Virus record (IMG/VR): IMGVR_UViG_3300006101_000064
Span: 1-24,115 of that record
DNA from: a virus
DNA length: 24,115 nucleotides
Reading direction: 5' to 3' (one strand)
A program made the position numbers and the translations under genes. The notes beneath the pieces were generated by a model, which saw only the letters and a list, made by a program, of their open reading frames with translations, made no database searches and was not told the origin of the DNA. Positions 1 to 23,993 of the stretch are shown one piece after another (positions within the stretch are counted from its first letter, which is position 1; the number at the start of each line of letters is the position of its first letter).

Positions 1-930
1 ATCGACGCACCAAACATCGAGCTTGGCGAGTTAGGTATACCAATCCCTGATCACGCAACAAAAACAACTCGTATGTATCCAAACGAGCAATGGGGTTTTC
101 ATCTCAACGAGCCACTTGTTATCTTTATTGACGAGTTCACCAAAGGTCATCAAGCAGTTCAGAATATGTTGCATCCTATGCTCAACGAACCACGTATGAT
201 CATGGGCATACCGTTACATCCCGAAACTATTGTTGTAACCGCAGGTAACTTTACAGGCGACGGAGTAGGCGACAACATGAAGGCGCATAGCCGTAACCGA
301 GTATCAGTTGTTGCAGTACGCAAGCCACACGCAGGCTTTAACGTAGATGGTTCCGTTGATGAAGACTCATGGGGCGCATGGGCAATCAAGCATGACATAG
401 CCCCCGAGATTCTTGCATGGGTTAAGGAAACACCACATACTCTTGCATCATATCTTGACCCTGCACAAAGCGGTAACAAGTACATCTTCAATCCGAAGGA
501 AGCACAGAAGTCTTTTGTTAGTCCACGTTCCCTTGCTAGAGCATCGCATATTTTGAAACGCAGATCCCAAAGCACCGAAAACGCAATCATTACTGCGCTC
601 GAAGGTACGATAGGCGCACCTGCATCACGTGATCTTATGGCATACGTTAAGGTGGCTGACAGCTTACCGACGTGGGAATCCATAGTGCGTGACCCTGACG
701 TAGCGACTGTTCCGTCATCACCTGCGGCTCTGTGTTTACTTGCGTTTAGCGCCGTTCAACGCGTCGACCGAGACTCAATCGGTAAGTTCTTTACGTATCT
801 CAAACGTACACCGAAAGAGTTGCAGTCCGTGTTCTGTTTGACTGGCATGGCTAACGCTGACAAGAAGAAGCTATTCATGACTAGCCAATCGTTCATTGAC
901 TGGATGCGTACCAATCAATACTTATTCTAA
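1..930 (+). CDS. MoxR-type AAA+ ATPase, C-terminal part (gene runs off the left edge)
   Basis: The frame is open from base 1, so the Met at 73 is internal and the true start lies before the window; 309 residues are visible. Walker B reads VIFIDEF (about bases 118-138), a sensor-1-like VVTAGN follows at about 232-249, and SRNRV at about 289-303 fits the arginine-finger position. The Walker A must be upstream. In the MoxR family such ATPases remodel or load metal into target complexes together with a VWA-domain partner. The next gene encodes exactly that kind of partner, which supports the call. The remaining C-terminal 200 residues are the expected helical lid and an unassigned extension. The family call is confident; the substrate is unknown. 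Confidence 0.8.
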   Translation: MDAPNIELGELGIPIPDHATKTTRMYPNEQWGFHLNEPLVIFIDEFTKGHQAVQNMLHPMLNEPRMIMGIPLHPETIVVTAGNFTGDGVGDNMKAHSRNRVSVVAVRKPHAGFNVDGSVDEDSWGAWAIKHDIAPEILAWVKETPHTLASYLDPAQSGNKYIFNPKEAQKSFVSPRSLARASHILKRRSQSTENAIITALEGTIGAPASRDLMAYVKVADSLPTWESIVRDPDVATVPSSPAALCLLAFSAVQRVDRDSIGKFFTYLKRTPKELQSVFCLTGMANADKKKLFMTSQSFIDWMRTNQYLF

Positions 931-934
931 ACAC

Positions 935-961
935 GACAGAGTAACACTTTGTAACTTTGTC
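935..961. repeat. 27-bp palindrome, copy 1
   Basis: The left arm is GACAGAGTAACA, the spacer is CTT and the right arm is TGTAACTTTGTC; 10 of 12 arm positions pair. It starts 5 bp after the ATPase stop and ends 18 bp before the ATG of the VWA gene. Near-identical copies lie at 2535-2561 and 4496-4522. It could act as an operator or as an mRNA hairpin. Confidence 0.75.
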
Positions 962-979
962 TCAACCAAGGAAATATAA

Positions 980-2173
980 ATGAGTAACTTAACTGCAGAA
1001 CAACGCATCGAAAGATGCCACGTTCAATTAATGAAACACCCAAGCTTTTGCTTGTTCTCAGGTTTGTTTATGGTGGGTAAGGTTAGTGTCGATGACAAGA
1101 CACCGACTGCTAAAACCAACGGTCTTGACGTAACATACGGCAGAGATTTTGTTGGCTCACTCAACGACAAACAACTAGGCTTTCTTATTCTCCACGAGAA
1201 TATGCACAAAGCGTATCGTCACCTGGTCGTTTGGAAGACTCTATACAAGCGTAATAGATGGCTTGCCAATGCAGCGTGCGACTACGTTATTAACTTACAA
1301 CTCATGGACTATGACCCACATGGACAGGACATCGAGTTCCCAACCGATAAGGATGGCAACCAGATTGGTCTCGTTGATGAGAAGTATCGGGGCATGGATG
1401 CACACCAAGTGTTTCTTAAATTACTTGAGGAACATGGCGACGTTCAACCCCCCGATGGTGACGAAGGACTCGACGATCATGACTGGGAAAGTGCGGAGGA
1501 GATGACCGACAAGGAGAAAGAAGAAGCGGCGAAGGAAATCGAAGATGCTCTACGTCAGGGTCAGATACTTGTTGGCAAGATGAAGGGTAACGTATCACGT
1601 GAGGTTCAAGACTTACTTACGCCGAAGGTAGATTGGAAAGAAGCATTGCGTGACTTTATCAAATCAACAACTGCAGGTAAAGACCAGACGACATGGCGAC
1701 GACTGCACAAGCGGTACATCGGTATGGATATTGTTATGCCTAGCACATTCGACGAGAAAGTCGGACCTATTACTGTGGCAATAGATACGTCAGGAAGTAT
1801 CGGCCACGAGGAACTCGCTCAATTCTTATCCGAGGTTAAGCTAATCTGTGAAGAAGTCAGACCTGAGAAGTTGGACATACTGTACTGGGATACTCGCGTA
1901 GCAGGGCATGAGGTTTACTCCGATGCCGAACTTGCTAATGTTGTTTACGTAACCGAAGCCAAGGGCGGTGGTGGTACTGAACCTTCGTGTGTACCTAAGT
2001 ATATGCGCAAGCACAACATGACTCCCGAGTGTCTTATTATGCTAACAGATGGTTACATTGGCGACCAGACTCGCAACGACTGGTCAATCAATTCTCCAAT
2101 CATGTGGTGTATCAAAGGCAACAACCACTTCGACAACGCTAGCGTGACAGGAAAGGTTGTTCATGTCGAGTGA
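980..2173 (+). CDS. DUF2201-type putative metallopeptidase with VWA domain (MoxR partner)
   Basis: 397 residues. The N-terminal half carries HExxH at residues 72-76 (HENMH) and, downstream, an NAACDYVIN segment at about 97-105, as in the putative metallopeptidase domain of DUF2201 proteins. Residues 155-200 are acidic and low in complexity, probably a linker. The C-terminal half is a VWA-like domain with a MIDAS: D269-T-S271-G-S273, T333 in a GGGGTEP turn and D357 in LTDGY. VWA domains bind protein partners through a metal ion, and this type usually sits beside a MoxR ATPase, as here. The start has a good SD (AAGGAAA). Whether the HExxH site is catalytic cannot be told from sequence. The target complex in a phage is unknown. 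Confidence 0.8.
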   Translation: MSNLTAEQRIERCHVQLMKHPSFCLFSGLFMVGKVSVDDKTPTAKTNGLDVTYGRDFVGSLNDKQLGFLILHENMHKAYRHLVVWKTLYKRNRWLANAACDYVINLQLMDYDPHGQDIEFPTDKDGNQIGLVDEKYRGMDAHQVFLKLLEEHGDVQPPDGDEGLDDHDWESAEEMTDKEKEEAAKEIEDALRQGQILVGKMKGNVSREVQDLLTPKVDWKEALRDFIKSTTAGKDQTTWRRLHKRYIGMDIVMPSTFDEKVGPITVAIDTSGSIGHEELAQFLSEVKLICEEVRPEKLDILYWDTRVAGHEVYSDAELANVVYVTEAKGGGGTEPSCVPKYMRKHNMTPECLIMLTDGYIGDQTRNDWSINSPIMWCIKGNNHFDNASVTGKVVHVE

Positions 2174-2387
2174 GATAAAAGATTGGTGTGTAATTCGGGT
2201 CTATCACCGTAGGCTCGAAACAGTCAGCAACGACTTTGTGCGGTACGAAGCCGCCAACGTATTCAATGCTCCACCACACAAGCGTATGGGTGTGGAGTAC
2301 TTGACCAAAGAAGAAGCAGAAGCAATGGCTAAATTTTTAAACTTTATTGAGGAATCAAATGAAAGAAACGATAGTACCCCAAGGTAG
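2163..2387 (+). CDS. Small hypothetical protein, 74 aa
   Basis: The ATG at 2163 overlaps the VWA stop by 11 bp and is preceded by AGGAAAGG; a TTG two codons earlier is less likely. The product is mixed and charged, with a KEEAEAMAKFLNFIEE helix near the C-terminus. There is no Cys cluster, membrane segment or motif that I recognise. Its position suggests translation coupled to the VWA gene. It may be a host-takeover accessory protein, but no function can be assigned. Confidence 0.6.
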   Translation: MSSEIKDWCVIRVYHRRLETVSNDFVRYEAANVFNAPPHKRMGVEYLTKEEAEAMAKFLNFIEESNERNDSTPR

Positions 2388-2544
2388 GAAGTTAGACAAC
2401 AAAGTAAACATAAGTCTTAACCGTGAGACCGTTGAACAGTTGGCGAAGTTCAAAGACAGACTCGGAGAAGTGCTGGGTGTAGAGCTATCCTATGCTCAAG
2501 CTATACAGTACTTAATTAAACATCAACCAACCAAGACAGAGTAA
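2359..2544 (+). CDS. Ribbon-helix-helix-like small DNA-binding protein, 61 aa
   Basis: The ATG at 2359 has a good SD (GAGGA, about 5 nt upstream) and overlaps the preceding gene. The pattern fits an RHH fold: a short strand (KVNISL, residues 15-20), a helix (NRETVEQLAKFKDRLGEVLG, 21-40), and then a second helix starting LSYAQAIQYLIKH (43-55). RHH proteins of this size are usually dimeric repressors that bind palindromes. The stop codon of this gene lies inside palindrome copy 2, so autoregulation or regulation of the DUF3150 gene is plausible. The fold call is by pattern only, without a profile search, and the operator link is inference. Confidence 0.5.
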   Translation: MKETIVPQGRKLDNKVNISLNRETVEQLAKFKDRLGEVLGVELSYAQAIQYLIKHQPTKTE

Positions 2545-2561
2545 CAGTTTGTAACTTTGTC
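2535..2561. repeat. 27-bp palindrome, copy 2
   Basis: The left arm is GACAGAGTAACA, the spacer is GTT and the right arm is TGTAACTTTGTC. It differs from copy 1 by one spacer base. It overlaps the end of the RHH-like gene (its TAA is in the left arm) and ends 26 bp before the ATG of the DUF3150-like gene. Confidence 0.75.
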
Positions 2562-2587
2562 CATCTTTAATACACAGGAGAATTCAT

Positions 2588-3457
2588 ATGACAACAGAAA
2601 ACAGTATTTCAATCGCATCATCATCAATGCTAGTAGAGTTATCAATCAGTACTTGGACTGCACGTAAGTTAGACAAGCGTGTATCAGCCGAGGTTGATCT
2701 CGCAAAGGGTACTAAGACACAGGCAGGTAACTACAACAAGAATCTGCTTGCAGGTACAGGGGTGTTGGAAAACATTACCAAGTACGCATCCAATGCGAGA
2801 GCATGGCATATTAAACAAACATTACCTTGGTCTGACAGTGGCTTGCGTTTGTTACCGATGACTAACTTCATTGCGTACAAGGAACAACTCAATCAGCTAG
2901 AACAGAACTACGACGCTTTAGTTTCTAAGTTCCTGATAGCCTACCCTGAGTTGGTATCAGCAGCTGCGTTTCAATTAGGTTCACTCTTTAATAGAGACGA
3001 GTACCCTGAGTCACACAAGATTGCAACCAAGTTCAAGTTCTCTTACAACTTCCTTCCAGTACCAATGGCAGGTGACTTCCGTATCGACATCAACGAAGAA
3101 GCGAAGAACGAGATCATCGAGTCATGCCGTAAGATGTATGACGAGCGTCTTAACAACGCAATGCGTGATGCGTGGACTAGGTTGCACACTTGCCTCATTC
3201 ACTTGAGCGAGAGGTTAGCCCCAACCGAACAAGGTGAACGTAAGATATTCAGAGACACATTAGTAGAGAATACGAAAGAGTTACTGGAGTTATTAAAACA
3301 TTTTAATCTCACACATGACCCGAAGCTTGATCAGGCTAGGCAGGAATTGCAACAAGCGTTAGGCGCACACACGGCTGACACATTGCGTGACATGGAGATG
3401 GCACGTGAGACAGTCAAGGCTAGAGTCGATGAGATTCTTGGTAAATTTAATTGGTAA
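2588..3457 (+). CDS. Probable DUF3150 protein, 289 aa
   Basis: It starts at an ATG after ACAGGAG. The product is largely helical and soluble, with no membrane segment. The N-terminus has a SISTWTARKLDKRVS segment and the central part is rich in aromatics, with a LPWSDSGLRLLP turn at about 77-88, followed by long charged helices and a coiled-coil-prone C-terminus (about 200-285). This architecture, and its place right after a MoxR ATPase and a VWA protein, fits DUF3150, a family of unknown role that often travels with those genes in phages. It may be the third subunit or the client of the MoxR-VWA pair. The family call rests on memory of the pattern and is moderate. Confidence 0.55.
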   Translation: MTTENSISIASSSMLVELSISTWTARKLDKRVSAEVDLAKGTKTQAGNYNKNLLAGTGVLENITKYASNARAWHIKQTLPWSDSGLRLLPMTNFIAYKEQLNQLEQNYDALVSKFLIAYPELVSAAAFQLGSLFNRDEYPESHKIATKFKFSYNFLPVPMAGDFRIDINEEAKNEIIESCRKMYDERLNNAMRDAWTRLHTCLIHLSERLAPTEQGERKIFRDTLVENTKELLELLKHFNLTHDPKLDQARQELQQALGAHTADTLRDMEMARETVKARVDEILGKFNW

Positions 3458-3466
3458 GGAAATATT

Positions 3467-4336
3467 ATGTTAACAATAAACAGAGATCAACTAAACATAG
3501 ACAAACGGCAGACACCGATACATCCTGATTTGGAGAAGTTTGCAACGCAAGTATCATTCGCTAAACCTTTGTGTACATTTATAGCATTGAAAGATTGTTT
3601 TAAGAACGTATACCATGAAGGGAATTGGAGTGACTATATATACAAGCTACATATCTACCAAAACGGTGATAAGGTAGGCGAAGTATTTGTAGATACCCAT
3701 TACAAGCAAGGTACTAACGAGCGTGAATCAATCTACGGCATCAAGTCTTTTCGCATAGAAAAAAGCCGAGGTGATCGTAACTCAACTACATCCAGAGATA
3801 TGAAGGTAGCCCTACGTATTGCTAAGAAAACGCTTGTTGCGAGAGAGCTGGAAGAAATGCGTAGTGTCATTGACGACAAGGTACGTGGTTGCATCGGTAA
3901 TATAATGTACCGCACGACAGGTATGTTGACGTACACTATGGATATAAACCATGAAGCCCAGTTGTATGCAATATCAGCGTATCAAGCTAGGAAGAAAGGC
4001 GAAACAACTGTTACTGTACCTGCGCATCCCGTGACTGTAACCGCTAGCAAGCTTAACGACCACACCATTGCGTGCGATTTGTATATGGAAATATATGCAC
4101 TTAAACAGTATCTCAAAGCTAACACAGGATACGGCATTAAAGTAATGGCTGACGACAGTATCATAATGCTAACGTATAGTACGGGCGAATTGTCTCGCTT
4201 AAGTTCTTATCATGAGTTACCCGATAGTATTCAGTCTAAGTTTGCGATGTTCAAGGTACTCAAGGATGACGAGCCGTATGCGCATCTTGGTTGTAAATTT
4301 AACGAGAATATATTTTATATAGCCCCCGATACTTGA
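3467..4336 (+). CDS. Hypothetical protein, 289 aa
   Basis: It starts 9 bp after the DUF3150-like gene, with SD AAGGAAA. I do not recognise it. The N-terminal half looks like alternating strands (YKLHIYQNGDKVGEVFVDTHY, about 47-67), the middle has a KKTLVARELEEMRSVIDDKVRG helix, and the C-terminal part is mixed. There is no Cys cluster, membrane span or nuclease motif. It closes the MoxR-VWA operon, so it may be part of that system. Its TGA stop overlaps an extended -10 promoter for the region downstream. Confidence 0.6.
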   Translation: MLTINRDQLNIDKRQTPIHPDLEKFATQVSFAKPLCTFIALKDCFKNVYHEGNWSDYIYKLHIYQNGDKVGEVFVDTHYKQGTNERESIYGIKSFRIEKSRGDRNSTTSRDMKVALRIAKKTLVARELEEMRSVIDDKVRGCIGNIMYRTTGMLTYTMDINHEAQLYAISAYQARKKGETTVTVPAHPVTVTASKLNDHTIACDLYMEIYALKQYLKANTGYGIKVMADDSIIMLTYSTGELSRLSSYHELPDSIQSKFAMFKVLKDDEPYAHLGCKFNENIFYIAPDT

Positions 4337-4342
4337 TACAAT
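4334..4342 (+). promoter_or_regulatory. Candidate extended -10 promoter
   Basis: The sequence TGATACAAT matches TGnTAnAAT. The TG is also part of the stop codon of the 289-residue gene. There is no good -35 at 16-18 bp, as is typical of extended -10 promoters. The predicted start at about 4349 would transcribe the structured region that ends at the 4466-4491 terminator. Confidence 0.35.
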
Positions 4343-4348
4343 ACACAC

Positions 4349-4491
4349 AGAATCCTCCTGTGGATTTCTCTGGACTGTGATACGTTGACCTAACAGATGT
4401 TTGCGTAACTAAAACAAGTCTCTCCTCACCGCAAGTAGGATGCGGAATCTGTTTAGCCTACACACTAAGCCCTCCTCGTGAGGGCTTTTTT
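4349..4491 (+). ncRNA. Candidate structured small RNA, about 140 nt
   Basis: No ORF of note lies here. The predicted transcript can form three elements in order. First is a hairpin at 4348-4372 (CAGAATCC with GGATTTCTCTG, with a 3-nt bulge). Second is a long-range stem, 4390-4398 (CTAACAGAT) with 4447-4456 (ATCTGTTTAG), that encloses a 5-bp hairpin at 4429-4445 (CCGCA/TGCGG). Third is the terminator hairpin. Together with an extended -10 motif at the 5' side, this is the layout of a standalone sRNA. It could equally be the structured 3' UTR of the upstream operon. I do not recognise a known RNA family or tRNA fold. Confidence 0.35.
4466..4491 (+). terminator. Rho-independent terminator
   Basis: A perfect 7-bp stem, AGCCCTC/GAGGGCT, with a CTCGT loop is followed by six T residues. 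It ends the left operon and/or the candidate sRNA. The same five-base loop occurs in the terminator at 17540-17566. Confidence 0.85.
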
Positions 4492-4495
4492 ATTG

Positions 4496-4522
4496 GACAA
4501 AGTTACATATTGTTACTTTGTC
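4496..4522. repeat. 27-bp palindrome, copy 3 (most symmetric)
   Basis: The left arm is GACAAAGTTACA, the spacer is TAT and the right arm is TGTTACTTTGTC. It pairs at 11 of 12 positions, and an outer G/C pair extends it to 4495-4523. It sits just after the terminator and about 30 bp upstream of a -35 element, a good place for an operator or activator site. Confidence 0.8.
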
Positions 4523-4571
4523 CTATTAGGGTTTTTTCCTAAAATATTTCTTGCAAAACCCTAGATTTAGG
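4522..4571. promoter_or_regulatory. Imperfect dyad overlapping the -35/spacer: possible operator
   Basis: The left arm CCTATTAGGGTTTT (4522-4535) is the reverse complement of AAAACCCTAGATTTAGG (4555-4571), apart from 2-3 extra bases. The right arm covers the stretch between the -35 and -10 of the promoter at 4551-4579, so a protein bound here would block RNA polymerase. This is inference from position. Confidence 0.4.
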
Positions 4572-4579
4572 ACTATACT
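4551..4579 (+). promoter_or_regulatory. Sigma70-like promoter for the nuclease/polymerase operon
   Basis: TTGCAA (4551-4556) and TATACT (4574-4579) are separated by 17 bp. Transcription would start near 4586, about 28 nt upstream of the ATG at 4614. It lies just after a terminator and before a long same-strand operon, which fits. Confidence 0.6.
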
Positions 4580-4613: not shown

Positions 4614-4946
4614 ATGGCACAAACACCAGAAGCTAAGGTAAAGCGAAGCGTCACCGACTTATTAGACAAGTATAACGTCTATTACTTCAAGCCTGCCACT
4701 GGCGGATATGGTAGATCAGGTGTGCCCGATATAGTAGGGTGCTTTCATGGGTACTTCATAGCTATTGAATGCAAAGCCAACGGCGCAAAACCAACCGCAC
4801 TACAAGAACGTGAACTCAAACGCATATATGAACACGGCGGTGTCACTGCCGTTGTAGGCGACGATGACGACTTAGACTTACTCAAGAAAAGCCTCGACAC
4901 AATTTTGTTTGTCCGTTCGAGCCAGTTCCCTAAAAGGGAACAATAA
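4614..4946 (+). CDS. VRR-NUC domain nuclease, 110 aa
   Basis: The frame is also open from a TTG at 4551, but that lies in the promoter; the ATG at 4614 follows CAGGAAAAG and is the better start. The short PD-(D/E)XK fold of the VRR-NUC type is clear: GVPDI at 36-40 (catalytic D39), IECK at 51-54 (E52, K54) and Q64 in the following helix. Standalone phage VRR-NUC proteins are structure-specific endonucleases, some of them Holliday-junction resolvases. Being the first gene before a DNA polymerase fits a role in resolving or processing replication intermediates. The family is confident; the exact substrate is not. Confidence 0.85.
   Translation: MAQTPEAKVKRSVTDLLDKYNVYYFKPATGGYGRSGVPDIVGCFHGYFIAIECKANGAKPTALQERELKRIYEHGGVTAVVGDDDDLDLLKKSLDTILFVRSSQFPKREQ
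4925..4941. repeat. Perfect 6-bp inverted repeat at the end of the VRR-NUC gene
   Basis: GTTCCC, the spacer TAAAA and GGGAAC form a 17-bp dyad ending just before the stop codon. No T-run follows, so it is not a classical terminator. It may be an mRNA hairpin. Confidence 0.4.
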
Positions 4947-5632: not shown

Positions 5633-7431
5633 TGCAAATAATTACAATCGACTTTGAGACTTATTACTCGCAAGAGTTTAGTCTCTCCAAGATGACGACA
5701 GAGGAATACGTTCGTGATGAGCGTTTCCAAGTTATTGGGTTTGCGTATCAGATAGATGATACTGAGCCACGTTGGGTGACTGGAACAACTGAGCATATTA
5801 AAGCGCAACTCGAAGCCCTGCCTTGGAAGGACTCGTATGCCTTAGCACACAATGCTGTGTTTGACGGTGCAATTATGTCGTTTATTTTTGGCATCAAACC
5901 TAAGATGTGGCTTGATACACTTAGTATGGCAAGGGCAACCGATGGCTTAGAGGCAGGAAACTCGCTTGCTAAACTTGCTCAACGCTATGAGTTAGGTGTC
6001 AAAGGCACGGAAGTTGTACAAGCACTTGGTTATCGTCGTGAGAATTTTAATCCTGCGGAACTTGAAGCCTACGGAAAATACTGTTGCAACGACGTCACTC
6101 TAACCTTTGACTTGTTTAATATATTGATTCAAAGGTTTTCTAAATCAGAACTGCAACTGATTGATCTGACTATTAGAATGTTTACTGAACCTGTACTTAG
6201 ACTCAACACGCCTGTACTGGAACAACATTTAATTAAAGTTAAAGCTCGCAAAGAAAAGTTACTTGAAGCTTGCGTATCAGATAAAGATACGTTGATGAGT
6301 AACCCAAAATTAGCTGAACTGCTTGAAGGACTTGGTGTTGAGATACCAATGAAGACCAGCCCTGCTACTGGAAAGGAAACGTATGCCTTCGCAAAAAACG
6401 ACGACGGGTTTAAAGCCCTTGCAGAACACCCTGACGAAAGAGTACAAGCGATTGTTGCAGCAAGATTGGGAACAAAATCAACTCTTGAAGAAACAAGAAC
6501 AGAAAGATTTATCTCTATCTCATTTCGAGGTGCGATGCCTGTCCCACTACGATACTACGCCGCACATACAGGACGTTGGGGAGGGGATGATAAACTCAAC
6601 CTTCAAAATTTACCGAGACAATCACCTATTAAATCAGCAATTACGGCGCCTAATGGATTCAAGCTTATTGATGCCGACTCGTCGCAAATCGAAGCAAGAA
6701 CCTTAGCATGGCTTGCAGGGCAGAATGACTTAGTTGAAGCATTTGAAAAGGGCGAAGATGTATACAAGATTATGGCATCGGCTATCTACGGCAAGGCTAG
6801 TGAAGAAATTACGAAGGATGAGAGGTTTGTGGGTAAGACGACCATCCTTGGTGCAGGCTACGGAATGGGGGCAGAAAAGTTTGCGCTTCAGCTTAAAACT
6901 TTTGGTGTTGAAATTGAGGTTGCGGAAGCAAAGCGAATCATCGATACGTATCGCAGCACATACCCACATATTGTTTCGCTATGGAAAGAAGCCAATAAAT
7001 CGTTGGACGCATTGCGGTCATCGCAAACTACAACGGTTGGGGTACAACCCCAAGCGCTCTATATAACAGAGAATGGGTTTGTTCTACCAAGTGGGCTGTT
7101 TCTCAATTATCCTGATCTACAAAAAGATGACGAGAACCAATACAGTTATCACTCACGCCGTGGTCGCATTAAGATATACGGCGGTAAAGTAGTTGAGAAT
7201 ATTTGTCAGGCTCTTGCTCGTTGCGTGATCGGTGAGCAAATGCTACGTATATCTAAGAAGTACAAAGTTGCTTTGACTGTACATGATGCGGTTATGGCAG
7301 TTGTACCTGAAGCTGAAGCTGAGGAAGCACAGAAGTACGTTGAAGAATGTATGCGTTGGAGACCTGAATGGGCTAAGACATTACCACTCAACTGCGAGTC
7401 AGGTATCGGAGACAACTATGCAGAATGTTAA
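5632..7431 (+). CDS. DNA polymerase I (family A) with 3'-5' exonuclease
   Basis: 599 residues, starting in a TAATG overlap. The exonuclease is DEDDy-type: IDFE (D7, E9), AHNAVFD (N74, D78) and Y150-CCN-D154. The polymerase has motif A (DADSSQIEAR, D347 or D349 to E354), motif B/O-helix (R398...K402...GY, Y410) and motif C (VHD, 550-552). There is no 5'-nuclease domain, as usual for short phage replicative PolA. Y410 in the O-helix is the residue type associated with ready use of dideoxynucleotides, as in T7 polymerase. It should be the replicative polymerase, working with the primase-helicase at 14493. The length is normal for the group and no catalytic residue is missing. Confidence 0.93.
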   Translation: MQIITIDFETYYSQEFSLSKMTTEEYVRDERFQVIGFAYQIDDTEPRWVTGTTEHIKAQLEALPWKDSYALAHNAVFDGAIMSFIFGIKPKMWLDTLSMARATDGLEAGNSLAKLAQRYELGVKGTEVVQALGYRRENFNPAELEAYGKYCCNDVTLTFDLFNILIQRFSKSELQLIDLTIRMFTEPVLRLNTPVLEQHLIKVKARKEKLLEACVSDKDTLMSNPKLAELLEGLGVEIPMKTSPATGKETYAFAKNDDGFKALAEHPDERVQAIVAARLGTKSTLEETRTERFISISFRGAMPVPLRYYAAHTGRWGGDDKLNLQNLPRQSPIKSAITAPNGFKLIDADSSQIEARTLAWLAGQNDLVEAFEKGEDVYKIMASAIYGKASEEITKDERFVGKTTILGAGYGMGAEKFALQLKTFGVEIEVAEAKRIIDTYRSTYPHIVSLWKEANKSLDALRSSQTTTVGVQPQALYITENGFVLPSGLFLNYPDLQKDDENQYSYHSRRGRIKIYGGKVVENICQALARCVIGEQMLRISKKYKVALTVHDAVMAVVPEAEAEEAQKYVEECMRWRPEWAKTLPLNCESGIGDNYAEC

Positions 7432-8092
7432 GTGGTCTTATTCCTCATTAACTTTGTTTCAACAATGCCCACGCAAGTATTTCCATTTGCGTGTACTCAA
7501 AGATGTAGTTGAGCCTGAGTCACCTGCCATGCTATACGGTACGCAAGTACACGAAGCTGCTGAACTATATGTCAAAGATGGAACGAAGATACCGGAGAAG
7601 TTTGCATTCATTAAGCCAGTATTGGATACTCTTATTGCTACACCTGGTACAAAGCTTTGTGAATACAAGATGGGTTTAACAAAGGATAAAGAACCATGTG
7701 ACTTCTTTGCTGAAGATGTTTGGTTCAGAGGTGTTGCAGATTTGCTTATATTAAATGGCAGTACGGCTTATGTTGTAGATTACAAGACAGGCAAGAGCGC
7801 ACAGTACGCTGATAAGAAACAACTCGAGTTAATGGCGCTGGCTGTATTTAAACATTTCCCTGTTATAGAAAGAGTAAAAGCGGGATTAGTATTTCTTGTA
7901 TCCGAGGAGTTTGTGAGGGAGCAGTACAACGTAGACATACAGGATGAGCGTTGGGCTATGTGGGATAGTGAAATTAAGCGTATTGAAGATGCAATTGAAA
8001 ACGATACGTGGAATCCGAAGCAGAACTTTACTTGCAAGAAGTTTTGCCTAATTGAACATTGTGAACATAACGGAAAAGGAACTTATAGATGA
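7418..8092 (+). CDS. RecB/Cas4-like PD-(D/E)XK exonuclease with four-Cys Fe-S signature
   Basis: The ATG at 7418 (SD CGGAG) overlaps the polymerase stop by 14 bp; an open frame extends upstream into the polymerase gene but is a shadow. 224 residues. Motifs are SYSSLTLFQQCPRKY (C17), H45 in GTQVHE, D108 in RGVADLL, D121-Y-K123 in VVDYKTGK and the Q135 motif. The C-terminus has C206-x3-C210-x4-C215. One N-terminal plus three C-terminal Cys is the layout that holds a 4Fe-4S cluster in Cas4 and AddB-type nucleases. It is likely a 5'- or 3'-ssDNA exonuclease for end processing and recombination. The presence of the cluster is inferred. Confidence 0.85.
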   Translation: MQNVKWSYSSLTLFQQCPRKYFHLRVLKDVVEPESPAMLYGTQVHEAAELYVKDGTKIPEKFAFIKPVLDTLIATPGTKLCEYKMGLTKDKEPCDFFAEDVWFRGVADLLILNGSTAYVVDYKTGKSAQYADKKQLELMALAVFKHFPVIERVKAGLVFLVSEEFVREQYNVDIQDERWAMWDSEIKRIEDAIENDTWNPKQNFTCKKFCLIEHCEHNGKGTYR

Positions 8093-8382
8093 GTAACGTA
8101 CCAAATCAAATTGTAAATTTACAAAAGATACAAGATGAAGCTGATAAACATGAAGCGTTTGTCGCTGAACAATACCAAGAAGCAATTATCAGTAACGAAG
8201 GGCTTGATGCAGGTCTAACAGTTGAAGGTCAACTTGAACGTAGATTTAAAGAATTGTTTATGCGTGTGTATAGCACACATATATACCCCGAGATACACAG
8301 AGCCGTTAACACAGAAGTTGCTGACGCTGCAATGAGACTTGGTAGACAACTTGGCACAATAAACAACGTACCAAAAAAATAA
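8089..8382 (+). CDS. Hypothetical protein, 97 aa
   Basis: It begins in an ATGA overlap with the nuclease gene, behind AAAGGAA. The product is acidic and helical, with an N-terminal coiled-coil-prone stretch (IVNLQKIQDEADKHEAF) and no Cys. A VYSTHIYPEIHRAVN segment lies in the second half. I do not recognise a family. Its close coupling to the exonuclease suggests co-expression only. Confidence 0.55.
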   Translation: MSNVPNQIVNLQKIQDEADKHEAFVAEQYQEAIISNEGLDAGLTVEGQLERRFKELFMRVYSTHIYPEIHRAVNTEVADAAMRLGRQLGTINNVPKK

Positions 8383-17539: not shown

Positions 17540-17566
17540 CCCTCACCCTCGTGGTGGGGGTTTTTT
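17540..17566 (+). terminator. Rho-independent terminator at the convergent junction
   Basis: An 8-bp stem (CCCTCACC/GGTGGGGG, one G-U) with a CTCGT loop is followed by six T residues. It ends the + strand replication operon; the T-run overlaps the stop codon of the minus-strand giant gene. On the minus strand no T-run follows the stem, so it works in one direction only. Confidence 0.85.
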
Positions 17567-20500
17567 ATTCTTCATTTGCATAATTACGCCATCCTTCAAG
17601 TTGGGGTATCATTCTTTTATCTATACCCATACCACCTGTGATGTTAGAAAGCGCTCTATTTTTATAGCGAGTTTTAATAGAATTTGTTAACGCATCTGGT
17701 GTAATGGCTTTGCCCGGATTAGTTTGGCTGAAATGCACGATCTTAGCAATGACTTTATCCATCATATATGTATCACCAGAATCTAAAGCAATAAAGAAGG
17801 CATTTAACAAATCATTATGTCTAGCAATAATTTCTTGTTCTGCATTTTTCATTTCAATATTTGCTTTTTGTGCTTGCGCGATTTTATCGGGCGTAAAACC
17901 AAGCATCTGTGCCAAAGCAAGGCGAGCAGGAACTTCTTCCATTAAAGTGTCACCTTTCATAGTAAGAGCTTGACCTTCTGAAAGATAGCGTAATCCAGTC
18001 ATGACGTTTTTAATAGCAGATGGCATAGCGGTTTCAATAGCACGTTCTGTATGGCCTTGATTAAAACGATCTAATGCTTCAGCATAAGTTACTAACGCGC
18101 CAGCAGATGGGCCAAGCAAACTCATCATAGTATTTTGTAACGTAGTAAGGTCATCCTTACCTTTACGTACATCTTGGAACCATAAGTCAGGTAAATTAGT
18201 GCTCATACGGTCTGCAAAGTTCAGTCCGCTGACTGTAGACAACGCGCCACGAGATAGTATTTCACCCGTAAACCCACCTAAATGTTTAAAGCACCAGTTC
18301 TTAAACCAATTTTCGGCATCAAACGGTTCGTCTGAATCACCAAATGCTGCATGAAAAGCTGAAGCAATGCCAGAGAATATAAACCAAAATGGTAAACCCG
18401 TCATGCCAGATGTAAGAAACGCCATGCCCATCATACCTAAGAACTGATCACGTGCTTCACGTTTAATACTTTCAAGTTCTTTAATCTTAGCTTTCATCAA
18501 TTCTTCTTTATGCGGCGAGTTACGCATCTCTCGCTCATATGCAATAAGTTCAGCTTGCATACCATCGCCCAAAGATTTTTGAAGTGTTCTAAACATTAGC
18601 ACAGTCATCTGTTGCGGATACATTTTAAATTGCAACAAAATATTACGGTAGTTACCGCGGAAATATCTTGGTTTATTGGTAGTGTTGTAGTTAAACAAAG
18701 TCTTTTTAACTAACGCATCGGCTTCTTGTATGGCTGTTTGGTAAGCTTGTTCTGCGGTATAACGTTGTTTACCATCATGAGTTTTAGCATCTAACGCTTT
18801 ATTATAGGCTAATTCAAATGTTGCCATAAACGTTGTCTCACGCATGTATTTTTCAGATGCGTGAAACGGTAAACTTGCGTAGTACATTATTTTGTTCCAT
18901 CGACCAGTGTATTGGTTTGATGGTTTTTCACCGATTTGCGCAGCTTCATGCGATAGCGTAACATCAATAGTTCCGCGTCTAACGCCGTCTTGGTATACGT
19001 CGGCATAAGTCTTACCTATAGAATTACCGTTTTTATCTTTAACATCCATGCCTTCCATATTGGCTCTGGCTAGTGATAAAAACTCATATCTGCCTGATGT
19101 TTCATTTACAAATCCTGTTCCACCAAGCATACGATTAAACTTTGCAAACGCACTCGCTGTATTTTTTAACCCATACCTAGCATTTGCAGCAGGCGCCCAT
19201 ACGCCTCCAACACCAAGCAAGTTAATCATAAACGATGCTGGCGCAGTTAAGAAGTTTATAAAGCCAAATTGATTTAACGCAGTGACAATTCCACTTTGTT
19301 TTGGTGGGTTAAGAATAGCAGTCTTAAGGTTTAACTCAAGTTCATGTACGTAATCTCTATACTTTAATGCCTCTCTAGCAGGCAGGCTTTTTAAACGTAC
19401 TTGTGCTGAACGAAGGTCGGTGAATAGCTGTGGTAAATGCTCAAACCTAGAACGCTGATATGCCATACGTAAACGAGACACTTCAAATGCACGAAGCATA
19501 TCAATACTTGCACCAGGTATATTTTCACGGTGCATAAACATCTTACGAATACTTTCGTTTGGCATTAGCTCTAAATACATTTGGCCGAGTTGATCTTTAA
19601 CTTGGTCGCGTAACGCCCCAATAGGGTCAGCTAATACTTTAGCATCTGAGCTACCTAAAATATCTTCCGTAGATTTATCAACTAGAGATTTTAAACTTTC
19701 TAAATGCGCCCAGTCACTTAAATTACTATTAAGAATTTCGCTGAAATTATTTCCTGCTTGAATATCGCCATTTTCTTCAACTTGCCTAAGTACTTCTTCA
19801 TCTGATGTGCCTTTTATAAAAGTACTTTTACCTTTTTCCTTTTTGATTAAGCGCTCTAATTCTTGTTCATAGGCATCATCACGAGCACCGGCAGTTTCAA
19901 ATTGCTGGAAAGTTTTACTTTTGCCTTTGCCTGTTTGCAACCAGAATTCGCCAAAACGTTTAAGCGGAAAGTAAATTTTAAGCGCGTCTTTAGCTATATT
20001 GTTTTTTAACTTAACTAATTCATCGTTAATTTCTTTTTCTGAAAGACCTTCACTTTTTAGTCTAGCATGAGTACGTTCTGCCTGGATTGCTATGTACTCA
20101 TCCATACGTCTTTTATAAAAATCACGCACTTCACGATAAATTTTTAACGCTGTTCTACCGTCTTCAGTGCCGTCAACCATTTTGTTCCAGGCATCTTTAA
20201 ACCGTTTATCAACGTTGTGCCAGTTTGCGGCATCGTGTGCAGGGCCAGTAGTATCGGCTTCAATTTGATCAATCGTAGCATTAAGCATTACTTCATGCAA
20301 CTGTTGAGCTTTATCAGGATTACTTTGAATTAATTGACTCCAAAGTTTAATTGCAGTATCGCCTTCCGCAAGTATTTTATTGCGGGTATAAATCATTGCA
20401 TCAACTTCTTTAACGTAATCTTTGAACTGTGGGATATTATCTCCAACAAGATCTGATAATTGGTCTAGTGTTAAAGCACCAAGCAAAGCTCTGCGGTATT

Positions 20501-23500
20501 CTTCACGAACACTAGCTAAGTTAGAAACAAATTTACGTTTATTAACTTTGCTCCAAGGAGTATGGCTTCTTATTAAATCTCCAATCGTGCCAAGCATACC
20601 TGTACGCTCAGCTGTATTAGCTCTAAATTTACCTTTTTTAGCCGCTATACTTTTTGCTATTTTTGGTTGTTTTTCGTCTTCAAACTTAGAAGTATTATCT
20701 AAAGATATAGAGTTTTGCGGTATAGCTGTACCCGGATTAAATGTATTAACGTTAGTTGTGCTTTCTTCTCTAGCAGAAAATAGTACATCTGTATTAGCCA
20801 TAGTTTGGAACAATACATTATCTACACCAATTAATTTAGATATGTATTGAATAAACTTAGACCAAGTAGATTGGTTAGTTTTGTTTTCAGCATAAAGACT
20901 ACGAAGTATTTTTTGAAAATCTCTATTGCTAAAAGCTTCAGCTATAAATTCATGTAAATTAAGAAGTCCATACTGTTCTGCATGTGGAGTTCCTTTAAGT
21001 TGTTTAACTGTGTTATGGTACAACGCTACTAAATTGTAATAAGCTCTACGTTGTTCTGGGTTTAACTTTTCAGGGTGCAACATTAAATCTGATACAGCAG
21101 CATGTGTAGACTCGTGCATTAGCACATAATTTGTTGTAACACCGCCATTTAAAGAATTATTAAGGGCAATAGACCCTTCGTAATAAAACCCAGCTGCAGC
21201 TAAAGACCCAACAGCTTCGTCTAATGATTTGTATGCAACTTTCGCTTGTTCCATCAAGCTTTTATTAGGCACTCTAATTCTGCCGTCCATTAATCTGTTA
21301 TAAGCTTCGGCCTTCAACAAAATTGGATTTATACTTGGGTCAAAGTTAGCTTCATTAAAATAACGATCCCATATGTGGTGGTAGTTAAGTTGCAGATAGG
21401 CTTCTACTTGGTTTCGTTGTACAGCCGTATGCGATAAAAAGTTTTCTAATACTTTATTAGTTATGTCATAGCCAATATTTACAGTAAAGTTTAACCCAAG
21501 TAAACGATCAGCCAATTTGCTAAAGTACTCACCTCCGTAACGCACTATGCCTTTTAATGCGCCTCTAAAATCATTTGAACGAATAGCATCATCAACTACT
21601 GGATGAACTGTAGCCTCTAACGTATTAATATCAGCATTTTGAACTTTAGGGCTACTAGACTTACTTTTCTTTTCTTTTTTATCTAAGCCTTTCTTTAGCT
21701 GCTGTTCTGTCTTACCCATTGCAATACGTGCTGGGTGGTTAACAGGCAGTTGAGGTTTTAATTCTTGCAGCTTTTTAGTAACCTCAGCTTTAGCTTCACG
21801 ATCTATATTTTCGCCCGATCCAATAGCAACCGCTTGGTTAAACAAGTCATGGTATTGTTGAACAATAGGGTTGTTTTGTAAGTCGGCAGGGAGTTCTTCT
21901 ATTCTTGGTGTTTGGCTTATGTGGCGAAGCTTTTCTTCTGTGCTTGACATAGGCTCAAGTTTTTTAGCTTCTTGTTCAGTTTCAACTTGTTCTGGCGTTG
22001 GCTCACCAAGTTCTTCTTCGTCTTGCTTACGCTGTTCTTCTTCAAGTTGAGATTGCTCTAATAACTTATCAGCTATTTCTTCATCAGTTGGTTCTTGATT
22101 TTGATTAAGTTCTTGGTCTAATTCATCTTGTAATGCAGCTTGTTCTTCTTCGCTAGGCGTTTCTTTGGTTTGTTCTTGGTTTGGCACACGAACCATGTAA
22201 TCTACACGATCTTCAAACCCATTACGTGCATACCAGTCTTTTAGTTGTTCTTGATTAAGTCCGCCTAAAGAAGCATCGGGCTGCGCCGCAGGTACAAGAA
22301 CTAAAGTTTTATCGTTAGTATCAGCCCAATTAGTAATTGCGCTTAATAATTTAGTACCCGCACCTTTATTTCTATTAGCTACATCCATGCCTGTTATCAT
22401 GGTAGCGCCAATAAGATCATCAGATAAATCATTATCTTCGTCTAGCACTTTAAACCCGGCAGTAGCAAGTGGTTCTTGCCCTTTTGTAACTGAAGGTAGA
22501 TACGCTCCTCTATCATTTACTCTAGCTGGTTTGGATTCAAAGGTTTCTTGTTCTTGCGTTTCTTTTGGTTGCAATGCCCCAACTTGTTCTGTATTTAGTT
22601 CAGCAGTGCTTGGTTGCGTTCCTCTTCCAGTTTGATCAGCAGGCTGTTCACTTCCCACCACATTACTTTGGGCATTTGTTTCAAGTCCTGGCTCAGTTCC
22701 TCGTTGGGAAGTAATCCCCTCAGATGTAGGAATGCCTGGCTGAGTAACTCCGGTGTTATCTCCAGTATTTCCTGCTGCATTTTGTTCCTCCTGTATTTTA
22801 TTACGGGCTTCAATATGTTTATCAATGTAATTGCTTAACTCTTCTTTAGTTGGTTCTTTGCCGTACTGTGCAACAAAATCAGGTTTAACAATATCAGCAA
22901 TCTGATTGCGTATTCTATTATTTGCAAGGTATCCTCGTATTCCACCAAGACCCGACATAGGAATGCCTTGTACAAATGTACCGACAACAGTCTCAATGTA
23001 CTCCTTCATGGCATCAAGATCGGCGGTATCAAGACCTGCACCGAAACGTTCTGCCCATTGTTGTGCTAGCTCAGGTGGTATTTCTTTAGCTGTTGAAGCT
23101 GCGTATACTTTAGCAACGTCATATAACAAATTTTTACCTGCCGCGTCTAAACCACTTAACGCACCAAGACCAAATCTTTCTGAAAGAAAATCGGCGCCTG
23201 CATGGATTGCCATTGCTGGCGCAAGTTTAGTAAAGTTAAGTTCTTGGGCTATGTCTGCATTAGGATTTTTATTTTGTATTTCTTCAATAGCACGGGAACC
23301 TGGTTCGCCAACACCGTGGAATGCAGCTTGCGTTGCCATACCAAGCATACTGCCTTTACTAAGCATAAGCTTTTTAGCGGAGTCAGCTACAAACTTAATG
23401 CCAGCTTTTGTGCCTTCTTTTTCAGCAACTTCTTCGGCTAACTTTTTAACACCTTGTTTAACTAATTGTTTTTCAGCAATTCCAGCTAAACCTCCAGGTA

Positions 23501-23993
23501 TTGCGCCAACACCACCAAAGAATGCTCCAAGCCCTGCGCCAACACCCGCTGACAATAAACTTTCACCAGCGTTAGCAACACCTTGTCCCACCATATAAGG
23601 CAGGTACTCTGTTATAAAACCGTTGACGCTATCATTCCATGCAACTTTAGCTTGTAAAGGTTCTTCTTCTTTTTTAGCTTCCTCCATACCCTTTAAGCCA
23701 TTAGCAATCATGTCGTGGCTAAAGTCACCTTCACCTGCTAATTTTTGTATGCCAGCTCCAGTTATAACTTTGGCAGCATTCCATAGTTCTTTAGTTTGTG
23801 GGGCATAAGCTTTAATACCACGAACAAATGCGCTACTATCATCTTGATCGGCTACGGCTGCAGGGTGAACATTATCAACAGTAGGCTTAGTATCCCAAGG
23901 AGCAGGACCGGCCATGCCACTTGGGTGTTGTTCCCAAGGCGCAACTTCATCTTCTTTAGTTGCTGCTTGTTCCCACGGCGCAAGTTGAGCCAT
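17565..23993 (-). CDS. Giant polyvalent virion/ejection-type protein, 2142 aa
   Basis: The start at 23993 has SD GGAAAG and a TAATG overlap with the upstream gene. The N-terminus repeats APWEQ (5-9, 18-22) and APWD (31-34). About 165-195 is Gly-rich and hydrophobic. About 400-470 is a disordered linker. About 495-600 resembles a GNAT acetyltransferase (NRNKGAG at 539-545, YARNGFE near 585). About 600-820 is charged coiled coil. HESTH at 960-964 with E1015/E1019 downstream looks like a zincin. The C-terminal 1000 residues hold helical stretches, hydrophobic segments near 1575 and 1850, and an RGNYRNILLQFKMYPQQM block typical of large polyvalent phage proteins. It probably enters the host with the DNA, like T7 gp16-type internal proteins. 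The domain calls are by motif; no transglycosylase or polymerase motif was seen. Confidence 0.7.
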   Translation of the reverse strand: MAQLAPWEQAATKEDEVAPWEQHPSGMAGPAPWDTKPTVDNVHPAAVADQDDSSAFVRGIKAYAPQTKELWNAAKVITGAGIQKLAGEGDFSHDMIANGLKGMEEAKKEEEPLQAKVAWNDSVNGFITEYLPYMVGQGVANAGESLLSAGVGAGLGAFFGGVGAIPGGLAGIAEKQLVKQGVKKLAEEVAEKEGTKAGIKFVADSAKKLMLSKGSMLGMATQAAFHGVGEPGSRAIEEIQNKNPNADIAQELNFTKLAPAMAIHAGADFLSERFGLGALSGLDAAGKNLLYDVAKVYAASTAKEIPPELAQQWAERFGAGLDTADLDAMKEYIETVVGTFVQGIPMSGLGGIRGYLANNRIRNQIADIVKPDFVAQYGKEPTKEELSNYIDKHIEARNKIQEEQNAAGNTGDNTGVTQPGIPTSEGITSQRGTEPGLETNAQSNVVGSEQPADQTGRGTQPSTAELNTEQVGALQPKETQEQETFESKPARVNDRGAYLPSVTKGQEPLATAGFKVLDEDNDLSDDLIGATMITGMDVANRNKGAGTKLLSAITNWADTNDKTLVLVPAAQPDASLGGLNQEQLKDWYARNGFEDRVDYMVRVPNQEQTKETPSEEEQAALQDELDQELNQNQEPTDEEIADKLLEQSQLEEEQRKQDEEELGEPTPEQVETEQEAKKLEPMSSTEEKLRHISQTPRIEELPADLQNNPIVQQYHDLFNQAVAIGSGENIDREAKAEVTKKLQELKPQLPVNHPARIAMGKTEQQLKKGLDKKEKKSKSSSPKVQNADINTLEATVHPVVDDAIRSNDFRGALKGIVRYGGEYFSKLADRLLGLNFTVNIGYDITNKVLENFLSHTAVQRNQVEAYLQLNYHHIWDRYFNEANFDPSINPILLKAEAYNRLMDGRIRVPNKSLMEQAKVAYKSLDEAVGSLAAAGFYYEGSIALNNSLNGGVTTNYVLMHESTHAAVSDLMLHPEKLNPEQRRAYYNLVALYHNTVKQLKGTPHAEQYGLLNLHEFIAEAFSNRDFQKILRSLYAENKTNQSTWSKFIQYISKLIGVDNVLFQTMANTDVLFSAREESTTNVNTFNPGTAIPQNSISLDNTSKFEDEKQPKIAKSIAAKKGKFRANTAERTGMLGTIGDLIRSHTPWSKVNKRKFVSNLASVREEYRRALLGALTLDQLSDLVGDNIPQFKDYVKEVDAMIYTRNKILAEGDTAIKLWSQLIQSNPDKAQQLHEVMLNATIDQIEADTTGPAHDAANWHNVDKRFKDAWNKMVDGTEDGRTALKIYREVRDFYKRRMDEYIAIQAERTHARLKSEGLSEKEINDELVKLKNNIAKDALKIYFPLKRFGEFWLQTGKGKSKTFQQFETAGARDDAYEQELERLIKKEKGKSTFIKGTSDEEVLRQVEENGDIQAGNNFSEILNSNLSDWAHLESLKSLVDKSTEDILGSSDAKVLADPIGALRDQVKDQLGQMYLELMPNESIRKMFMHRENIPGASIDMLRAFEVSRLRMAYQRSRFEHLPQLFTDLRSAQVRLKSLPAREALKYRDYVHELELNLKTAILNPPKQSGIVTALNQFGFINFLTAPASFMINLLGVGGVWAPAANARYGLKNTASAFAKFNRMLGGTGFVNETSGRYEFLSLARANMEGMDVKDKNGNSIGKTYADVYQDGVRRGTIDVTLSHEAAQIGEKPSNQYTGRWNKIMYYASLPFHASEKYMRETTFMATFELAYNKALDAKTHDGKQRYTAEQAYQTAIQEADALVKKTLFNYNTTNKPRYFRGNYRNILLQFKMYPQQMTVLMFRTLQKSLGDGMQAELIAYEREMRNSPHKEELMKAKIKELESIKREARDQFLGMMGMAFLTSGMTGLPFWFIFSGIASAFHAAFGDSDEPFDAENWFKNWCFKHLGGFTGEILSRGALSTVSGLNFADRMSTNLPDLWFQDVRKGKDDLTTLQNTMMSLLGPSAGALVTYAEALDRFNQGHTERAIETAMPSAIKNVMTGLRYLSEGQALTMKGDTLMEEVPARLALAQMLGFTPDKIAQAQKANIEMKNAEQEIIARHNDLLNAFFIALDSGDTYMMDKVIAKIVHFSQTNPGKAITPDALTNSIKTRYKNRALSNITGGMGIDKRMIPQLEGWRNYANEE
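22595..22780 (-). CDS. Nested out-of-frame ORF with full Shine-Dalgarno, 61 aa (speculative)
   Basis: Inside the giant gene, on the same strand but in a shifted frame, AGGAGG (22792-22787) is followed by 6 nt and ATG. The product is helical and amphipathic (LEITPELLSQAFLHLRGLL near the start, KVMWWEVNSLLIKLEEE near the end). In the giant frame the same bases encode a Gly/Thr/Asn/Gln-rich linker. Against it, third codon positions in this frame are G/C-rich, unlike neighbouring genes, while the giant frame keeps the usual A/T-rich third positions, and the SD could arise by chance from codons for Gln-Glu-Glu. Confidence 0.25.
   Translation of the reverse strand: MQQEILEITPELLSQAFLHLRGLLPNEELSQDLKQMPKVMWWEVNSLLIKLEEERNQALLN

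Follow-up and report, generated by a model that had tools for sequence, protein, structure and literature searches.

The 24,115-nucleotide (nt) stretch analysed here, positions 1 to 24,115 of the environmental IMG/VR virus record IMGVR_UViG_3300006101_000064 (hereafter the window), carries a 27-base-pair (bp) palindrome that is one version of a set of DNA switch sites; in many related phages from freshwater, such sites precede the same set of early genes. Each phage lineage has its own site sequence, apparently matched to a previously uncharacterised protein of the phage, from a family that we call F10. Weighing the comparisons below, we consider that the palindromes are probably dispersed double-stranded DNA operators of an autoregulated F10 regulator, which would probably act by repressing or roadblocking early transcription.

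In the window, three copies of the palindrome, at 935..961, 2535..2561 and 4496..4522, fit the pattern GACARAGTWACANNNTGTWACTYTGTC with no mismatch in a pattern scan, exactly where an initial annotation of the sequence had placed them, and none of 100 dinucleotide shuffles of the window gave a match. No further match at up to three mismatches was found in the window. Each palindrome consists of two inverted half-sites, GACARAGTWAC. The initial annotation described arms around a 3-bp spacer: the arms are indeed shared and the spacer variable, but the arms are not perfectly complementary within any one copy, with A facing A (arm position 9) and G facing T (position 5) in copies 1 and 2, and T facing T (position 9) in copy 3. 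The copies had also been assigned to control positions. Copy 1, between the genes for a MoxR-type ATPase and a VWA/metallopeptidase-like protein, ends 18 nt before the next ATG (980), and copy 2 ends 26 nt before the ATG (2588) of a DUF3150-like gene, so that both do precede start codons, although copy 2 also overlaps the final codons of a ribbon-helix-helix (RHH)-like gene (end of the open reading frame, ORF, at 2544). Copy 3 directly follows a terminator-like hairpin (4467..4487, plus strand) and precedes a sigma-70-like promoter of the VRR-NUC gene (TTGCAA-17-TATACT, 4551..4579, plus strand); because a scan of the window for promoter-like hexamer pairs did not exceed chance (11 versus 11.6 in shuffles), this promoter rests on its recurrence in relatives, which have a similar -10 element.

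Five IMG/VR records match the window at 99.9-100% identity over 5 to 13 kb, and the longest of them, G003 (63,498 bases), shows how the sites are distributed. It contains 10 sites at no more than three mismatches, all within positions 23955-33643 of 63498, and an eleventh with four mismatches inside the end of an ORF; the reversed pattern gave no match in G003, and a scan of the rest of the record returned one 5-mismatch string as the sole match outside the site region. In L030, a stretch of G003, the sites stand at 5955, 6763, 6964, 7453, 8260, 9495, 10890, 12058, 13658 and 15619. Leftward terminase and portal genes lie to the left of this cluster, and the rightward early genes start with F10, at 6096-6752, with a paralog at 7508-8143. 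Sites occur near F10, in the gaps that separate operon genes and, at the VRR-NUC gene, between terminator and promoter, and two are found, by eye, behind promoter-like hexamer pairs at about +25 to +52. Two promoter-like pairs in L030, 7393-7421 and 8199-8227, have the spacer AGTGGGATTTTGTGG in common, and both have GGACAAACGC upstream, which by eye resembles the outer half-site. A relative with a 77% identical MoxR (G007) also carries 10 copies, including sites before the F10, MoxR, DUF3150 and VRR-NUC genes.

Searches with MoxR and DUF3150 yielded 113 related loci (L116-L228), besides L008, and in many of these the window motif is absent and another palindrome stands at the same places, often keeping the outer GACA..TGTC. 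Under one scoring applied throughout, clusters of at least four palindrome copies were present in 78 of 99 related loci (14 duplicates having been dropped from the 113), compared with 10 of the 61 viral loci that are unrelated and with none of 99 shuffles. The unrelated set comprised 73 pattern-found loci minus L048, L097 and those under 4000 bases; a single hit to a loosened version of the pattern is present in each of the 61, and among the 10 positives several are low-complexity loci. Shuffling was mononucleotide (one per locus) and, for the cluster count, first-order Markov, and the similarity measure and thresholds were our own. Scoring a site as upstream of a gene when it fell between 80 nt inside and 200 nt upstream of the start (69 loci, duplicates and low-complexity loci removed), we found one before MoxR in 50/65 loci, DUF3150 in 45/60 and VRR-NUC in 32/44, less often before F3 (17/52), VWA (12/65), F4 (3/49) and the small terminase gene (1/45), and never before DNA polymerase (0/40) or TerL (0/46); in L137 and L151 the site precedes a small gene ahead of the VWA gene. 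Only 131 of the 527 sites fall mainly within ORFs of at least 100 codons, versus 69% of random places, and among the relatives inspected the VRR-NUC leader often shows, by eye, the order terminator, site, promoter. Site orientation was significant (p<0.05) in 8 of 57 loci, that is, there is little orientation. The initial annotation had proposed a search for further copies and for conservation in related phages, naming their lack as grounds for refutation, and both were found; the recurrence of palindromes at the same places in many relatives supports its suggestions of selection on the arms and of a shared operator for a phage regulator.

Palindromes and repeats of other kinds were seen among these and other phages. 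L187-L203, L215-L220 and L228 have compact palindromes with a short centre, without the outer GACA box, and with no F10 detected, and L205 and L206 carry long arrays of an approximately 18-bp repeat (GGGAATGCGC-type) unrelated to the palindromes. Among named phages, Planktothrix phage Pag-Yong1 (L232, OL906435.1) contains GGTTCAGNCTGAACC 30 times at up to three mismatches in 41 kb, with 18 copies mostly noncoding, 8 located 22-23 nt before a start codon, and a cluster of 25 versus 6 in a shuffle. Rhizobium phage RHph_TM3_14A (L233, MN988472.1) contains GTTACCTNNNNAGGTAAC 37 times at up to three mismatches in 42 kb, just 11 of them mostly noncoding, with a cluster of 25 versus 2 in a shuffle. 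No palindrome cluster of at least four was present in the stretches examined of KPP25, Tunturi_3 and Vibrio 1.238.A.

The protein that best follows the site sequence is F10, which is helical and about 190-280 residues long. Genomes carry one or two F10 genes, placed among the first of the early rightward operon; in G003 these genes lie about 3 to 5 kb before the start of the window. Candidate binders were compared by relating protein-family similarity to motif similarity with MoxR identity held constant. For F10 this partial correlation was 0.29 across 41 loci, a value reached by 0 of 1000 permutations (an earlier, smaller set of 36 loci had given 0.40). Scans with 11-residue segments covered 16 families and then ten more, nine of which were scored, and the best F10 segment, near residues 84-94 (PTVKTMWTRFT), reached 0.54 versus a null maximum of 0.23 in 200 permutations. 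F10 stands out among the tested families present in at least 16 loci, where the others, apart from RHH, reach at most 0.42 (F16); some segments of families with 7-9 loci scored 0.55-0.79, with nulls equally high. The same helix is the best segment in sole F10 copies alone (83-93) and in second copies alone (86-96). Between paralog 1 and paralog 2, the shared fraction of helix residues is 0.40 for the same motif versus 0.18 for different motifs (0/5000 permutations, 13 genomes), compared with 0.21 versus 0.22 for the rest of the protein, and the paralogs of two-copy genomes are only 17-26% identical outside the helix (40% in G003); L146 is an exception, at 0.14. The helix segment was first picked on data overlapping those of this paralog test; the segment scan was repeated on separate copy sets. 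By eye, the helix has an R two residues after the aromatic in the GTTAC, GTGTC, CGAC and CCGC motif types, and no such R in the CTTAG, CCTAG and ATAAG types.

Individual genomes show the same association. L181 and L182 are 97% identical in TerL, 99% in MoxR and 95% in polymerase, but only 37% in F10, and their motifs are of the CCGC and CCTAG types, respectively; L182 and L186 share a motif with 77% identity in MoxR and 62-65% in F10. An F10 profile, which itself contains many of the F10s from the matched records, matched 12 of 12 long-palindrome records and 0 of 4 compact-palindrome records. The 20 loci chosen for this purpose contain 28 F10 copies: for 17 of them a site begins no more than 150 nt upstream of the ORF, and for a further 6 there is one no more than 121 nt behind the first possible start codon. 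These correlations support F10 as the most likely binder of the palindromes.

Several observations weigh against this assignment. The six comparisons of F10 copy sets do not all agree: first copies of two-copy genomes peak at residues 24-34 (0.91; helix 0.82), and sole versus second copies are only weakly related (helix segment 85-95, 0.16). L181 and L182 differ also in several small early genes, including F5, and the profile search left F10 undetected in the four compact-palindrome records. No site lies near five of the 28 F10 copies, each of them the first copy in a two-copy genome, and some loci share a motif with moderate F10 identity (L116/L137 34%, L134/L141 49%, L135/L138 48%). L180 has an F10 87% like that of L182 but the motif of L181, and is a counterexample as it stands, although the contig is most plausibly a hybrid or a chimera, with its F10 no more than 1.2 kb from the contig end and next to a site of the CCTAG type; L180 was kept in the 41-locus correlation and omitted from alignment A4. 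F10 has no recognised DNA-binding domain, with Pfam families matching at most 2 of 53 members (best E 3e-4), and Foldseek searches, with the whole model and the N-terminal domain against PDB and with the whole model only against BFVD, returned nothing at E<=0.001. Lastly, sites occur both before and behind promoters, with no single operator geometry.

The AlphaFold model of F10 is all-helical (pLDDT 90.8, pTM 0.60; N-terminal part alone 87.1 and 0.77), and its best VIA matches, the AppA SCHIC domain (Z 7.1, 79 aligned, root-mean-square deviation, rmsd, 3.3) and Ara h 2 (Z 6.2, 80 aligned, rmsd 3.7), have scores within the range of common helical arrangements. One F10 searched against named phages by tblastn at E 0.01 gave no match. 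An F10 match at G012:C1:8078-8743 contains an in-frame TAA within the length of the profile match.

A different binder of the same DNA operators, namely the RHH-like protein, the 83-residue helix-turn-helix (HTH) protein, F5 or a host protein, is in our view unlikely. The RHH-like protein (2359) and the HTH protein (14255) had been put forward in the initial annotation, and both turn out to be poor fits. The RHH fold is classically DNA-binding, and across 15 loci RHH similarity does track the motif, with a segment r of 0.67, above that of F10, at the presumed beta strand; yet near-identical RHH cores accompany different motifs (53/53 residues in the pair L178/L182, 52/53 in L181/L182 and 48/52 in L183/L185), and we rejected this candidate. 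A search with the window RHH matched 7 of 16 records and missed diverged members, as in G019 (L178), which has an RHH-like ORF at that place. The HTH protein, matched in 13 of 16 records, was rejected because it is 53-66% identical in nine long-palindrome records regardless of motif (62% in G007, with the same motif, and 65% and 66% in G014 and G009, with different ones). F5 changes together with F10 between L182/L185 and L181/L224, but its segment maximum is 0.30, versus 0.54 for F10, and sequences that differ by lineage among phages otherwise so close would be hard to attribute to a host protein. Nor does the motif go with the variable gene that precedes F3 (L030 9542-9964), the GTGTC type occurring with F39, F90 and F113; F31 (partial correlation 0.43 in 10 loci, in the smaller set) was set aside, as its members, ORFs of the terminase region, look spurious and its segment value of 0.30 was reached by 25 of 200 permutations. 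By eye, this L030 gene and its counterparts ahead of F3 in relatives have exchangeable N-terminal parts, one weakly HTH_23-like, on a common C-terminal coiled-coil-like end.

If F10 is the binder, a dimeric, sequence-specific phage protein would bind the two inverted half-sites as double-stranded DNA, with one helix of its N-terminal domain reading the inner part of each half-site, and the F10-site pair would diverge between lineages much like repressor-operator immunity pairs. Bound between genes, and before and behind promoters, F10 would most likely hold down or time early transcription, in part as a roadblock to elongation. The sites near F10 itself suggest autoregulation, whereby F10 would control its own synthesis. 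Whether F10 represses or has some other effect we judge to be about evenly balanced, and a roadblock or bridging complex fits the mixed site positions better than does one classical operator geometry. We would give an even chance to the broader proposition that F10 is a DNA-binding family of a fold unmatched here, in which a single recognition helix has radiated together with its operator sets into dozens of natural protein-operator pairs.

The same mixed positions, before and behind promoters, would also suit sites that serve genome organisation, through partition, compaction, packaging or silencing by bridging, and F10 could still be what binds them. The long C-terminal helix predicted in F10 and the wide spread of palindromes in the two named phages, mostly within genes in RHph_TM3_14A, point the same way, but in G003 all sites fall in the early 10 kb, before particular genes, and ParB-like partition was rejected, as no ParB_N match (PF02195) occurred in 13 records. 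We hold this explanation to be improbable, slightly more so than another binder.

For the first two window copies, the initial annotation had offered repeated mRNA hairpins as an alternative, and one could picture the palindromes generally as RNA hairpins in mRNA leaders, serving as processing sites, stabilisers or translational operators. Many sites do lie about 20-30 nt upstream of start codons, and the two sites following promoter-like hexamers would be transcribed at about +25 to +52. Hairpin arms, though, should covary, and instead the two arms of a site paired less well than arms combined across different sites of that genome; this was so for 45 of the 61 loci analysed (499 sites; mean difference -0.018; p=1.5e-5 by Wilcoxon test, approximate since the loci are related). 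The set comprised loci with at least five sites, from which duplicates, low-complexity loci and L180 were removed by hand and in which the near-identical pairs L126/L156, L138/L139, L187/L189 and L198/L199 were kept. No compensatory changes between arms were found in the 61 loci, no excess pairing within sites was seen in Pag-Yong1 and RHph_TM3_14A, and an Rfam scan of the window gave no family at threshold. The A/A and T/T oppositions in the window copies and the location of copy 3 upstream of its promoter also speak against RNA. Worse pairing within sites argues for DNA half-sites over an RNA hairpin, and mRNA hairpins are disfavoured because the arms do not covary, which leaves them a poor prospect; the sign of the pairing difference could reflect selection that disfavours stable hairpins ahead of ribosome-binding sites.

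Hairpin promoters for a phage RNA polymerase, as in N4, are very improbable: the 3-nt spacer and the position before genes resemble them, but the arms do not covary, promoter-like hexamers adjoin some sites, and the 2142-residue ORF of the window is DarB-like. A search for a single-subunit RNA polymerase (PF00940) gave no match in 10 records and was equally silent on its control genomes. Site-specific recombination was rejected, as spacers differ between copies and the compared stretches of near-identical records align without breaks; integrase (PF00589, 0/17 records) and resolvase (PF00239, 0/13) matches were lacking in records that may be fragments.

Around the sites, all on the plus strand, the window encodes the 3' part of the MoxR-type AAA ATPase gene (73..930, its start lying before the window; phrog_1297, and AAA_5 for the whole gene), the DUF2201 metallopeptidase/VWA-like gene behind copy 1 (980..2173), the small RHH-like gene (2359..2544, fold assigned by eye), the DUF3150-like gene behind copy 2 (2588..3457; PF11348 at E=6e-4, below the Pfam cut-off), and, behind copy 3, a Holliday-junction-resolvase/VRR-NUC-like nuclease gene (4614..4946; phrog_93, phrog_5702, PF01870), whose name VRR-NUC was taken from an initial look at the sequence and the annotation of RHph_TM3_14A. 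On the minus strand, 17565-23993 encodes the 2142-residue protein, with DarB-like antirestriction and LPD39 matches. As for the host, no MoxR relative was confirmed among genome contigs; DUF3150-like relatives occur on 42 plasmid records (Burkholderiales plasmids, e.g., NZ_CP027670.1; 28-34% identity in the 20 listed), which is a weak hint at the host group.

Dispersed phage palindromes without a known binder have been reported before (PMC4351075, PMC3203893). In the phages studied here, nature has in effect done the experiment many times over, with lineages that differ in the version they carry at shared gene positions, and a single protein helix changes with that version, so that binder, recognition code and function become testable in laboratory phages and hosts. 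The sites may define immunity-like groups among freshwater phages, and, if our reading is true, F10-operator pairs, including those of the close genomes L181 and L182, could reveal a recognition code and the rules by which immunity types diverge.

The nearest known kinds of element are the stoperators, the extended start-associated sequences (ESAS) and the Cluster O palindromes of mycobacteriophages, and none matches fully. Stoperators of Cluster A phages such as L5 and Bxb1 are described as many copies of one site, mostly outside promoters, with a consensus that differs between lineages and follows the regulator (PMC6550527, PMC9283540). The present sites are likewise numerous and mostly outside promoters (10 in G003, within 10 kb), and their consensus changes with the candidate regulator F10, by correlation. 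In contrast, stoperators are asymmetric 13-bp sites oriented with transcription, whereas ours form a 27-bp dyad with little orientation. The Cluster A repressor has an N-terminal HTH and a stoperator domain; for F10, Pfam gave no convincing match and the fold searches no clear one. Cluster A phages are temperate, with integrase or partition genes; here the searches for PF00589, PF00239 and PF02195 matched 0/17, 0/13 and 0/13 records, which may be fragments. ESAS of Cluster K mycobacteriophages are described as inverted repeats at conserved positions just before the start codons of particular gene families, with a consensus differing between subclusters and no function known in that paper; their repeats are imperfect, 17 bp long and mostly 4-13 bp apart, and they adjoin a 13-bp start-associated sequence (SAS) (PMC3203893). 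Ours share the location directly upstream of start codons of particular gene families, but have 11-12-bp arms and a spacer whose length is constant in any one phage, come in more sequence types and have a candidate binder. For Cluster O mycobacteriophages, 34 copies of one 17-bp palindrome are reported throughout the genome, with dyad symmetry, invariant arms and a variable 3-bp centre, and the authors predicted a dimeric DNA-binding protein (PMC4351075); the dyad symmetry, conserved arms and variable centre recur here, but with about 10 copies in the early region and another sequence in each lineage. Intergenic repeats of phage TLS and T1 relatives were likened to stoperators by their authors (PMC11447400), and our palindromes also lie between genes. 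A literature search that left subscription journals largely uncovered found no prior report on the palindromes of this phage group. Dispersed phage operators are already known; what is new here is the unusual radiation of the site sequence, together with a new candidate binder family.

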